A DNA stretch of 64,000 nucleotides from Jannaschia sp. M317 (GTDB lineage: Bacteria; Pseudomonadota; Alphaproteobacteria; Rhodobacterales; Rhodobacteraceae). The DNA is taken from positions 282,001 through 346,000 of the forward strand of contig NZ_CP081155.1 in assembly GCF_025141175.1 (NCBI RefSeq). The letters are read 5' to 3'. The notes below the pieces were generated by a model, which was not told where the DNA came from, made no database searches, and saw only the letters and a list, made by a program, of their open reading frames with translations. The translations under genes and the position numbers were made by a program. Shown one piece after another: positions 4,787 through 36,870 of the stretch; positions within the stretch are counted from its first letter, which is position 1; each line of letters begins with the position of its first letter.

Positions 4787-5170
4787 TTACAGAATGATAA
4801 TCGTGAACAGCGACAGGCAGACCGAGGCGATGATGATCCCGATGCCCAGTTTTTCCGCCGAGTCGATGTCCAGCAGATAGCCCTGATCCCAGACCAGATG
4901 CCGCAACCCCGCCAGCAGGTGATACCAGATCGCAAAGATCGACCCCAGGAACACCAGCTTGCCGAACCACGACGTCAGCACCGCGTCGGCGGTGGCAAAG
5001 GCCTCGGGCCCGGCGGCGGCGGCCACGAACCACCAGGTGATCAAAAGCCCCGCGAGGATCAGCGCGTTGCCGGTGATCCGCGTCAGGATGGAGGTCATGG
5101 AGGTCAGCTGCGGGCGATACACCTGAAGGTGCGGGCTCAGGGGTCGATTGCCCCGGTTGACGTCGGCCAT
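4787..5170 (-). CDS. sdhC: Succinate dehydrogenase cytochrome b556 subunit
   Basis: A 127-residue heme-b anchor of complex II with three membrane helices. The SdhC signature is clear: [19 protein letters not shown] at the N-terminus and [10 protein letters not shown] entering helix 1, with the candidate axial heme His in [12 protein letters not shown]. It is the first gene of the leftward sdh operon; the ATG at 5170 follows AGGAGCG. The upstream 200 bases are shared with a divergent gene and carry the twin TGTGATCACA boxes. Confidence 0.95.
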
Positions 5171-5274
5171 GCGACGCTCCTTTCCGGTCTGGAAGTCTTG
5201 GGTCTGGTCTTCGCTCTATAGTCCTAGCGATTTCACCACCGGTGTCACGGGGTCGGAGGGTCGCAGGTCAATAT

Positions 5275-5326
5275 TTGGCGCTAACGGTGGCGATTTGTGA
5301 TCACGGTTTCGCGATGTGTGATCACA
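5275..5326. promoter_or_regulatory. Candidate TCA-cycle operator: twin TGTGATCAC(A) boxes plus TTGGCGCTAACGGT
   Basis: Two palindromic boxes, TGTGATCACG at 5296-5305 and TGTGATCACA at 5317-5326, start 21 bases apart (two helical turns). TTGGCGCTAACGGT lies beside them at 5275-5288. The same three elements, with the same 21-base box spacing, occur upstream of sucC. The boxes lie 126-156 bases upstream of sdhC and 54-84 bases upstream of the divergent gene at 5380. The binding protein is not known from the sequence. The central-carbon regulators CceR and AkgR of Rhodobacter sphaeroides are obvious candidates, but I cannot confirm that their motifs match. Confidence 0.65.
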
Positions 5327-5351
5327 GGAACCGGCCCGAAGATCGCGGGTT
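5327..5351 (+). promoter_or_regulatory. Candidate EcfG-type promoter for the DUF3140 gene
   Basis: GGAAC at 5327-5331, 16 bases, then GGTT at 5348-5351. This matches the general-stress sigma consensus GGAAC-N16/17-CGTT except for the first base of the -10 element. The last base lies 28 bases before the start codon at 5380, similar to the spacing of the other candidates in the stress region. The -35 element abuts the right-hand TGTGATCACA box. Confidence 0.5.
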
Positions 5352-5379: not shown

Positions 5380-5718
5380 ATGTCGAGCAAATCGCGCGAT
5401 CAGATCTGGGACGAATGGCGGGACATGGTCAACATGGCCCCGCAAGAGATTGCAGACTGGCTGAAGACCGACGAAAGCCGATCGGTCGGATCTGATGACG
5501 GCGACGGAGAGTCGACGGGACACAAGTCCGGCAAACGGATCGTCGAGATCAAGCGCGCCAACAAGGCCGACCTGACCGAGGCCGATTGGGACCACATGGG
5601 CAAGGTCGTGGCCTACATCAAACGACACACCGCCCAGAACGGCCCGGAAGGGGACGTCGAACAGTCCGCCTGGCGCTATTCGCTGATGAACTGGGGCCAC
5701 GATCCCCTGGCGGACTGA
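5380..5718 (+). CDS. DUF3140-type small acidic protein
   Basis: A 112-residue hydrophilic protein, probably cytoplasmic, resembling the DUF3140 family by its core (DQIWDEWRDMVNMAPQEIADWL) and its C-terminal VVAYIKRHTAQ and SLMNWGHDP. The biochemical role is unknown. I chose the ATG at 5380 because AAGGACGGAGG lies just upstream; an in-frame start at 5242 would run through the regulatory boxes. A GGAAC-N16-GGTT element 28 bases before the start suggests control by the stress sigma factor EcfG encoded at 42.4 kb. It is transcribed away from sdhC and ends one base before the next, convergent gene. Confidence 0.8.
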   Translation: MSSKSRDQIWDEWRDMVNMAPQEIADWLKTDESRSVGSDDGDGESTGHKSGKRIVEIKRANKADLTEADWDHMGKVVAYIKRHTAQNGPEGDVEQSAWRYSLMNWGHDPLAD

Positions 5719-10859: not shown

Positions 10860-10862
10860 GCG

Positions 10863-10927
10863 TTGGCGCTAACGGTTAACGGAGGGTTTCCAGATTTGTG
10901 ATCACACATTCGCAGCCTGTGATCACA
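10863..10927. promoter_or_regulatory. Candidate TCA-cycle operator upstream of sucC
   Basis: TTGGCGCTAACGGT at 10863-10876 is identical to the element upstream of sdhC. TGTGATCACA occurs at 10897-10906 and again at 10918-10927; the two copies start exactly 21 bases apart, as at sdhC. Box pair to sucC start: 115-145 bases. Here the element continues as CTAACGG-TTAACGG (10869-10882), a direct near-repeat not present at sdhC. The shared architecture is seen directly; the regulator is inferred. Confidence 0.65.
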
Positions 10928-11041: not shown

Positions 11042-12235
11042 ATGAACATCCACGAGTATCAGGCCAAGGCCCTTCTGCGCGACTACGGTGCCCCCGTCAG
11101 CGAAGGCGTTGCCGTGACCAAGGCCGCCGACGCCAAGAACGCCGCCGGGCAGCTTGACGGCCCGCTTTGGGTGGTCAAGGCACAGATCCATGCGGGCGGC
11201 CGCGGCAAGGGCTCCTTCAAGGAACCCGAGGCCGGTGAAAAAGGCGGCGTGCGCCTGACCAAGTCGGTCGAAGAAGCCGCGAACGAAGCCAAGGCCATGC
11301 TCGGCAACACGCTGGTCACGCATCAGACCGGCCCGGCGGGCAAGCAGGTCAACCGCATCTACATCGAAGACGGCTCCGGCATCGCGCGCGAACTGTACCT
11401 GGCCCTGCTGGTCGATCGTCAGACCAGCCGCATCGGCTTTGTCTGTTCGACCGAAGGCGGCATGGACATCGAGGAAGTCGCGGCATCGACCCCCGAAAAG
11501 ATCGTCAGCTTCTCGGTCGATCCCGCCACCGGCTTCCAGCCCTACCACGGCCGCCGCGTCGCGTTTTCGCTGGGACTGGAAGGCGCGCAGATCAAGCAGT
11601 GCGTCAAACTGATGGGACAACTCTACCAGGCCTTCACCGAGAAGGACATGGAGATGCTGGAAATCAACCCGCTGATCGTGACCGACACGGGCGACCTGAA
11701 GGTGCTGGACGCCAAGGTCGGCTTCGACGGCAACGCCATCTACCGCCACAAGGACATCGCCGAGCTGCGCGACGAAACGGAAGAGGACCCCAAGGAACTC
11801 GCCGCGTCCAAGTTCGACCTGAACTACATCGCGCTGGATGGTGAAATCGGCTGCATGGTCAACGGCGCGGGCCTGGCTATGGCGACGATGGACATCATCA
11901 AGCTGTATGGTGCCGAGCCTGCAAACTTCCTGGACGTCGGCGGCGGTGCCACCGAAGAAAAGGTGACCGAAGCCTTCAAGATCATCACCTCCGACCCGCA
12001 GGTGAAGGGCATCCTGGTCAACATCTTCGGCGGCATCATGCGCTGCGACGTCATCGCCGAAGGCGTTGTCGCCGCGGTCAAACAGGTGGGCCTGAAAGTG
12101 CCGCTGGTTGTCCGGTTGGAGGGCACGAACGTCGAGCAGGGTAAGAAGATCATCAATGAATCCGGCCTCGATGTGATTGCGGCCGATGACCTGAAGGACG
12201 GCGCACAGAAGATCGTGAAGGCTGTGAAGGGGTGA
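11042..12235 (+). CDS. sucC: Succinyl-CoA ligase (ADP-forming) beta subunit
   Basis: A 397-residue beta subunit with the N-terminal ATP-grasp domain and C-terminal ligase domain. Landmarks are [30 protein letters not shown], the metal/nucleotide site [13 protein letters not shown], and [20 protein letters not shown]. It couples succinyl-CoA cleavage to ATP or GTP formation with SucD. It is first in the suc operon and 115 bases downstream of the twin TGTGATCACA boxes. Unusually, sucD does not follow directly: a repeat region and two exported-protein genes separate the two subunit genes. Confidence 0.97.
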
Positions 12236-24673: not shown

Positions 24674-25321
24674 TCAGGTCGCCAGCAGACGCAGTCCCTG
24701 GGTCACATCCGCCCGCACCGCCAGTCGCAGCCCCGGCTCGTCCCCGGCGCGCAGGGCCGCCACGATCAGGCGATGGTTCTTCGGCAGTTCGGTGCGGTTC
24801 AGCCGCCCGTACAGCGATCGCATCGTCGGTCCGAGTTGCAGCCAGACCGTTTCGACCATCGCCAGCATCGCGGGCGCTTGGGCGCGCAGGTAAAACGTGC
24901 GGTGGAACTCAAGATTGGTGCGGATGTAGCCAGAGGCGTCGTGCTTGGCGATCTGCTCGGCGATGGATTGGTTGATCGTCTCCAACCGGTCGATCAGGGC
25001 CAGGTGCGCCCGTGGCAGGGCCCGCACGGCCAGCTCCGGCTCCAACAGGGACCGCAGCGCGGCCAATTCCTCGATCCGTTCGTTCGACAGCGCAGGCGTG
25101 GTCACACGGCCCGAGGTCGACAGCGACAGCGCGCCTTCGGCGACCAGCCTGCGCATCGCCTCGCGGGCGGGGGTCATCGACACGCCGTAGTCCCGCCCGA
25201 TCCCGCGCAGGGTAAGCGGCTCGCCGGGCCCCAGCTCTCCATGCATGATGCGCGTGCGCAGCGACCGATACAGTCGATCATGCGCCGCACCGGCACCATC
25301 GGGTTTTGGGGTCAGTAACAT
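24674..25321 (-). CDS. GntR family transcriptional regulator, FCD type
   Basis: 215 residues. An N-terminal winged helix (DRLYRSLRTRIMHGELGPGEPLTLRGIGRDYGVSMTPAREAMRRLVAEGAL, about 15-65) and an FCD ligand domain with a likely metal/ligand His in LEFHRTFYLRAQ and an NHRLIVAAL motif. Members usually bind carboxylates. It lies next to the TCA block, convergent with the gene at 24044 and on its own promoter side, so a role in sensing a TCA-related acid is possible but unproven. Confidence 0.9.
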   Translation of the reverse strand: MLLTPKPDGAGAAHDRLYRSLRTRIMHGELGPGEPLTLRGIGRDYGVSMTPAREAMRRLVAEGALSLSTSGRVTTPALSNERIEELAALRSLLEPELAVRALPRAHLALIDRLETINQSIAEQIAKHDASGYIRTNLEFHRTFYLRAQAPAMLAMVETVWLQLGPTMRSLYGRLNRTELPKNHRLIVAALRAGDEPGLRLAVRADVTQGLRLLAT

Positions 25322-35973: not shown

Positions 35974-36870
35974 ATGTCGCGTAGCAGCAGCACCTTCAAG
36001 GAAGGCTACAACCGCGCCCTCGACATGATTGGCTCGGGCGGGGTCGACTGGGAACTGCCGACCGAAGTCGCCCTTGCCAAGAAATGGTCGGTCAGCCGAA
36101 CCACCGTTCGCAGCATTCTGCAGGGGTTGCAGGACGTCGGGATCATCACCTGGTCCGGACGGTCCAAGACGGTCCTGCGCAAGCCGCGCAAGGCGGAATA
36201 CTTTCCGGCGGACGAAACGGAATCGGTCGCCGAAAAGCTGCCTTCGCTGTTCATGGAACATATCTTTGCGGGCGAATTGACGCCCGGCACGACCCTGCGC
36301 GAAACCGAACTGGCCAAGGCATTTGGCGTCAGTTCGACAGCCGTGCGCGAATTCCTGATCCGGTTTTCCCGCTTTGGCCTGATCGAGAAGAAACCCAATC
36401 GCCACTGGGTGCTGAACGGGTTCACCCGCGACTTCGCCGAGGAATTGTTTGCGGTGCGTGCGATGTTCGAACGCACTGCCTTTGCCGCGTTTCTGGCCGC
36501 AGGCAAAGACACCCACCAACGCGTCATCGACCTGCGCGAAGAACACGAAATGATCCTGGCCGATATTACCCGGAACTATGTCCTGTTTCCGCGGCTCGAC
36601 GAAAAATTCCACCGGACCTGGATCGACGCCTTCGGCAATCGGTTCGTCCGGGACTTCTTCGAGCTGATCTCGCTGGTATTTCATTATCACTATCGCTGGA
36701 ACAAACGAGACGAGCTGGAACGCAATCACCACGCGGTGATCCAGCATCTCGCCATCATCTCGGCCCTGGAAGCGGGTGACGCGGACGCGGCTGATCGGGC
36801 AATGAACCTGCACCTGACCCACGCCCGCGAAACGCTGTTGTCTTCGGCCACCTGGGATGGGTCGACATAG
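35974..36870 (+). CDS. GntR/FCD regulator with two tandem winged-helix domains
   Basis: 298 residues, about 60 more than usual. The first helix-turn-helix is LAKKWSVSRTTVRSILQGLQ (34-53) in a full wing context, the second LAKAFGVSSTAVREFLIRFS (113-132), and an FCD ligand domain follows (about 155-290) with LDEKFHRTW and LHLTHARE as likely metal/ligand residues. Normal FCD proteins have one DNA-binding domain. It probably controls the divergent sugar operons; the ligand would be a pathway intermediate. The start at 35974 begins the first domain. Confidence 0.85.
   Translation: MSRSSSTFKEGYNRALDMIGSGGVDWELPTEVALAKKWSVSRTTVRSILQGLQDVGIITWSGRSKTVLRKPRKAEYFPADETESVAEKLPSLFMEHIFAGELTPGTTLRETELAKAFGVSSTAVREFLIRFSRFGLIEKKPNRHWVLNGFTRDFAEELFAVRAMFERTAFAAFLAAGKDTHQRVIDLREEHEMILADITRNYVLFPRLDEKFHRTWIDAFGNRFVRDFFELISLVFHYHYRWNKRDELERNHHAVIQHLAIISALEAGDADAADRAMNLHLTHARETLLSSATWDGST

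Follow-up and report, generated by a model that had tools for sequence, protein, structure and literature searches.

Paired palindromes upstream of sdhC and sucC across the Rhodobacteraceae are best explained by the known regulator AkgR

A paired layout of short palindromes, found upstream of sdhC and of sucC in Jannaschia sp. M317, recurs in most sampled genera of the Rhodobacteraceae. Judged from comparison of sequences, this operator pair is real and strongly conserved, and it is best explained by AkgR. It is highly probable that each pair is an operator for two AkgR dimers, through which AkgR would most likely activate the genes of complex II and those of sucCD-sucAB together. The core of this system is thus a known regulator of the citric acid cycle that has been described previously.

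The window analysed here is a 64-kb stretch of the Jannaschia sp. M317 genome. The first-pass annotation of this window had reported one pair of boxes on the sdhC side and one on the sucC side, both with a 21-bp phase, and these coordinates are confirmed (Table 1): the start-to-start distance is 21 bp in both pairs, and the sdhC boxes at 5296 and 5317 have the form TGTGATCAC(G/A). The pattern GTGATCAC-N13-GTGATCAC has two exact matches in the window. Allowing up to three mismatches adds one overlapping match at 5318, where shuffled sequences lead one to expect 0.42; this degenerate third repeat (5318-5346, three mismatches) extends the 21-bp register past the sdhC pair. GTGATCAC itself has five copies in the window, against a simulated mean of 1.26 and a maximum of 5, and 21-bp pairs of it are found in 0 of 200 simulated windows. 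In the whole genome there are 20 exact copies of TGTGATCACA, and 16 of the 17 that lie outside the window overlap a mechanically called ORF of at least 100 aa. Since single boxes are common and mostly fall within ORFs, it is the pair, and not the lone box, that is the specific signal. A third 21-bp pair of the genome lies outside the window, inside an ORF that by eye is sufD-like (G000 C1:2250946-2250976; L064:6947-6977). Nothing similar had been noticed elsewhere in the window. The accompanying 14-mer TTGGCGCTAACGGT has its only exact copies in the window at 5275 and 10863 (the next best have two mismatches). The two operons had also been called unlinked, which does not hold: sdh and suc are separate transcription units with 5.6 kb between them, within the same cluster.

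Table 1. Features of the window that bear on the paired boxes and their candidate regulator
Feature	Position	Strand	Sequence or basis
sdhC, sdh operon gene 1	4787..5170	-	PF01127, TIGR02970
Possible -10 of sdhC, TAGGAC	5226-5221	-	sequence match
-35-like GTGACA of sdhC, 52 nt from proximal box centre	5243..5248	-	sequence match; start predicted
CceR-like site, between boxes and sdhC	5275..5288	.	GTT-N6-AAA on minus strand; one core mismatch
AkgR-type box, proximal to sdhC, 21 bp from distal box	5296..5305	.	TGTGATCACG
AkgR-type box, distal to sdhC	5317..5326	.	TGTGATCACA, exact palindrome
CceR-like site, upstream of sucC boxes	10863..10876	.	core GTT-N6-AAC at 10862-10873
AkgR-type box, distal to sucC	10897..10906	.	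TGTGATCACA
AkgR-type box, proximal to sucC, 21 bp from distal box	10918..10927	.	TGTGATCACA
sucC, gene 1 of sucCD-sucAB cluster	11042..12235	+	NF001913
GntR/FCD regulator, proposed AkgR orthologue and box reader	24674..25321	-	PF00392 and PF07729; follows lpd

The boxes contain the half-sites TGTGA and TCACA, as do binding sites of CRP. A CRP site (TGTGA-N6-TCACA) needs a spacer of 6 bp, however, and here the half-sites abut directly. The first-pass annotation had set CRP aside for the same reason, rightly in our view, and the chance that these are CRP-type sites is negligible.

To follow the pair among genomes, the pattern TGTGATCACN-N9..12-NGTGATCACA was searched, with the reversed pattern as a control. 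In a family sample of 295 Rhodobacteraceae genomes, one per genus, 253 contain the pair, and the reversed control finds no match in the genome rows. A draw of 385 genomes from the whole class has the pair in all five members of the family and in two of the 380 others. Both of these outside matches have a 22-bp spacing and neither yielded an sdhC or sucC promoter. Because the reversed control also matched one genome of this draw (G367) twice, the outside matches are near background and may be due to chance, and occurrence of the pair beyond the family was rejected.

Within the family, the position of the pair was compared in a set of promoters taken from the window and from loci L024-L053, L064-L073, L092-L111, L142-L231 and L236-L238, excluding loci that had no match, less than 150 nt of upstream sequence, or an upstream end identical to another. 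All 32 sdhC promoters and all 55 sucC promoters have the pair upstream of the gene; as these loci were mostly picked by the pair, the figures speak of its position and not of its frequency. Where loci were picked by the regulator instead, the pair is found in 12 of 12 sucC promoters (these loci included no sdhC promoter). Although 17–23 bp were permitted, 79 of the 87 promoters have a spacing of 21 bp and the other 8 one of 20 bp. From the centre of the proximal box it is 118–195 nt to sdhC (median 134) and 100–158 nt to sucC (median 113). There are 20 clusters of 13–20 kb in which sdhC and sucC each have one pair upstream, and where sdh and suc are far apart (about 90 kb in G093, about 190 kb in G252), each operon keeps a pair of its own. 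An absent or randomly spaced pair in relatives, which had been named in advance as the outcome that would count against shared regulation, is therefore not what is seen; the spacing at sdhC and sucC is near-fixed.

Some further features of these loci are worth noting. In many sucC promoters of relatives, AAATGTCG and then an AT-rich stretch directly follow the proximal box. In one genus (G042; L065:5293) an additional pair lies upstream of an ORF that by eye resembles a class II fumarase, possibly an extra target in the TCA cycle. In the window, a divergent gene for a DUF3140 protein (5380-5718) was considered as the target of the sdhC pair. This was rejected because the pair stays at sdhC in 20 loci that have no blastp homologue of the DUF3140 protein.

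A candidate for the protein that reads the boxes is the GntR/FCD regulator encoded after lpd (Table 1), one of 18 FCD-domain matches in the window genome. Another GntR/FCD-type protein is encoded at 35974-36870 (+), and by eye it has apparently two winged-helix segments ahead of its FCD domain. With a cut-off of our own choosing (E<1e-50), an orthologue of the candidate is found in 268 of the 295 family genomes. Both pair and regulator are present in 247 genomes, the pair only in 6, the regulator only in 21, and neither in 21, as tallied by eye from the genome tables. Pair and regulator go together (Fisher p=1.4e-15), in a comparison that covers this one regulator and ignores shared ancestry. 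Three of the six genomes that have the pair and no clear orthologue (G019, G096, G114, G256, G264 and G273) are 73–77% complete and the other three 91–100%. In the latter, G019, G114 and G256 (all at least 91% complete), the reader may have been replaced or may have diverged strongly.

The 42 genomes negative in this strict search were also searched with up to two mismatches, and 38 of them gave a match, of which 30 were kept, one locus per genome. Such relaxed matches occur commonly as background, including where the regulator is absent, and the reversed control matched G172 twice and G201 once. Among genomes with the regulator, the relaxed match adjoins sdhC or sucC in 12 of 17, versus 0 of 13 among those without it (p=8.7e-5), the remaining 12 genomes (4 with and 8 without the regulator) being outside this 30-locus comparison. 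In the other five of the 17 re-examined genomes with the regulator, no relaxed pair was found at sdhC or sucC.

The regulator can be connected to a protein studied in Rhodobacter sphaeroides, RSP_0981, which we take to be AkgR. One genome of the sample (G051) is regarded as R. sphaeroides-like; its pufL product is 100% identical to that of R. sphaeroides. It has two 21-bp pairs, and its orthologue of the window regulator shows 77% identity, with the second match at 29%. Located 0.74 kb beyond sdhB, this orthologue is the sole GntR/FCD match in 19.9 kb. Going by the numbering of sdh (RSP_0974-6) and RSP_0981, this is the spot where RSP_0981 is to be expected, and we infer that the orthologue corresponds to that locus tag. 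In the available part of PMC4344238, RSP_0981 is described as a GntR protein and is predicted at sucCD, at sdh (RSP_0974-6) and at the 2-oxoglutarate dehydrogenase genes. The comparison with the AkgR motif that the first-pass annotation had proposed also turned out positive, as GTGATCAC is given among the AkgR sites in the portion of PMC6365646 at hand. The box pairs at sdhC and sucC are therefore very probably docking sites of AkgR. An earlier idea that one regulator acting as a pair of dimers serves both operons is very probably right as to the single regulator; that this would be an unknown protein is not borne out, the evidence pointing to AkgR.

It is conceivable that a different regulator, another GntR paralogue or a member of another family, reads the boxes and that AkgR merely co-occurs with that regulator. 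The many FCD-domain proteins of the window genome and the 6 of 253 pair-bearing genomes that have no clear AkgR orthologue would fit this. However, besides the published AkgR sites, a box is also found at a fixed place by the start of the AkgR-type gene itself, in many genera, which makes a different reader quite improbable. Among the regulator loci compared (the best 80 of 499 confirmed relatives, from named Rhodobacteraceae), 52 have an exact GTGATCAC at or before the start of the regulator gene. In the others of these best 80, the closest sequence at the start deviates from it at one position in 5 loci, at two in 11 and at three in 12. As the sample is the best 80 of 499, the proportion holds for the closest relatives; an exact GTGATCAC is also found in the start region in 18 of 31 further loci, which partly repeat the 80. 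Pairs at the regulator gene itself are not listed in any of the examined loci.

AkgR thus remains the preferred reader, and the layout of its own promoter suggests how the single box could work. Counted by a slightly different rule there are 53 such self-boxes. In 50 of these a TTGA is found no more than 32 nt upstream, with its first base 18 nt ahead of the box in 44. The first ATG or GTG lies 8–10 nt past the box in 38 of the 53. If normal promoter spacing is assumed, the self-box would cover the -10 region and the transcript would begin at or near the start codon. In L142-L221 the start codon of the regulator approximately coincides with the expected transcription start, so that its mRNA is probably leaderless in many genera. 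In many relatives, AkgR bound at this lone box, on the -10 of the akgR promoter, should repress akgR, and the placement of the box fits such repression.

This box is not universal. Among the best 80 of 499 relatives, an exact self-box is absent from ten Jannaschia, four Limimaricola, two Roseibacterium and four Roseicyclus loci, and G051 also has none. The regulator of the window is 81–92% identical to Jannaschia proteins, and a self-box was looked for before its start and not found; the region has TTGACC, and both target pairs are intact. Autoregulation through a box was therefore rejected for the window genome, which has kept the two target operators and has a regulator gene without a box.

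At the target promoters the geometry is different. A GTGAC(A/T) element, resembling a -35, is found downstream of the proximal box in 26 of 32 sdhC promoters, the window included, with a background of 0.03 per 120 nt upstream of the pairs. Its distance from the box is 52 nt in the window, 61–64 nt in 21 promoters and 82–84 nt in 4, and by eye a TA-containing stretch lies beyond it, where a -10 would be expected. Because these classes are about one and two helical turns apart, the face of the helix is suggested to matter at sdhC, which with only three distance classes is to be taken as suggestive. In the case of sucC, 22 of 55 promoters have a TTTA/TTTC stretch 50–52 nt past the proximal box; this stretch is a candidate -35. 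Two AkgR dimers would sit side by side on the same face of the DNA, two helical turns apart, some 50–85 bp upstream of the -35 region.

GntR proteins of the FCD type are commonly ligand-responsive repressors, and the pair at sdhC and sucC might accordingly be a repressor site or an effector-dependent switch. This is unlikely, as the sdhC pairs are well upstream of the -35-like element, at all three distances, and a protein bound there should not block the polymerase. Such a position fits an activator and not a blocking repressor, and AkgR is called a transcriptional activator in the accessible text of PMC6365646. Activation by AkgR being the favoured reading for the target promoters, one may go a step further and suggest, tentatively and with somewhat less than even confidence, that AkgR reads the layout of its sites: a same-face pair placed whole turns upstream of the -35 would activate sdh and suc, a lone box on the -10 of the akgR promoter, probably a leaderless one, would repress the gene, and Jannaschia-like lineages would have dropped this feedback arm. 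If true, the lower TCA cycle would have a homeostatic circuit built in across the whole family.

The 14-mer TTGGCGCTAACGGT needs a separate explanation. It had been described as preceding both pairs, and there is indeed an exact copy beside each; that it precedes them is true on the plus strand only. sdhC is read from the minus strand and sucC from the plus strand, so that in the direction of transcription the 14-mer follows the boxes at sdhC, between them and the gene, and comes before them at sucC. In relatives, its resemblance to the sites of CceR, a regulator of the LacI family, can be followed through two patterns. More sdhC promoters than expected have a half-site GCTAAC/GTTAGC (11 of 32, 3.5 expected); the excess is smaller at sucC (11 of 55, 5.8 expected), and the positions of the half-sites scatter from -72 to +142 around the start of the distal box. 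Exact GTT-N6-8-AAC is not clearly enriched at either gene (sdhC 6 of 32 versus 4.4 expected, sucC 12 of 55 versus 7.3). It could be argued that 14-mer and twin boxes form one composite element and are needed together, as the exact copies beside both pairs of the window and the enriched half-sites at sdhC might indicate. The reversed order between sdhC and sucC, the smaller excess of half-sites at sucC and their scattered positions speak against this, and against the earlier view of the 14-mer as part of a shared module, so that a composite element is very unlikely.

CceR is presumably RSP_1663. For the latter, a core motif GTT-N6-8-AAC and a pattern [AGT]GTT-N6-8-AAC[ACT] are given in the available part of PMC4344238, which predicts it at sdh and mdh in R. 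sphaeroides. The suggested comparison with the CceR motif thus finds a core within TTGGCGCTAACGGT close to this pattern: at 10862-10873 the core fits and the two flanking bases do not, and the site at 5275 has one core mismatch. These sites vary in order and position. TTGGCGCTAACGGT resembles a CceR site and does not appear to be a fixed partner of the pairs, and a second, independent input by CceR at these promoters is plausible.

The pairs would mean that, in the majority of the genera sampled from a widespread family, a single regulator links complex II with the succinyl-CoA/2-oxoglutarate arm of the TCA cycle. The part of PMC11323563 at our disposal places TCA enzymes in the CceR regulon of R. 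sphaeroides and not in that of Paracoccus denitrificans, for which other mechanisms are suggested; the AkgR twin operators are a candidate for TCA control in P. denitrificans. The near-fixed geometry also offers a natural series of spacing variants for the study of activation from a distance. No description of the fixed pairing was found in the accessible portions of PMC11323563, PMC5507952, PMC4344238, PMC4419725, PMC6365646 and PMC7471390, and likewise no report of the stepped distance to the -35-like element or of the single autoregulatory box (Imam 2015, mBio, was outside this search). The geometry may thus be new, as may the contrast of paired operators at the targets with a single one at the regulator gene itself.

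Among known systems, PS417_07240 of Pseudomonas simiae, a proposed regulator of deoxyribonate catabolism, is similar in that GTGATCAC lies upstream of its cluster and that it is reported to be 32% identical to AkgR, but it belongs to another pathway and host, and one palindrome and no pair is reported for it in the available text of PMC6365646. The closest likeness is to the AkgR regulon of R. sphaeroides. Of the features that define this regulon, three were found here, with direct binding and activation as predictions, namely an orthologous GntR/FCD regulator, the GTGATCAC core in the target promoters, and sdh and sucCD/sucAB as targets, and in the R. sphaeroides-like genome the regulator adjoins sdhB. 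What is described here beyond that regulon is the pairing at 20–21 bp, found in 253 of the 295 sampled genera, together with a lone box that many genera have at the promoter of the regulator gene.
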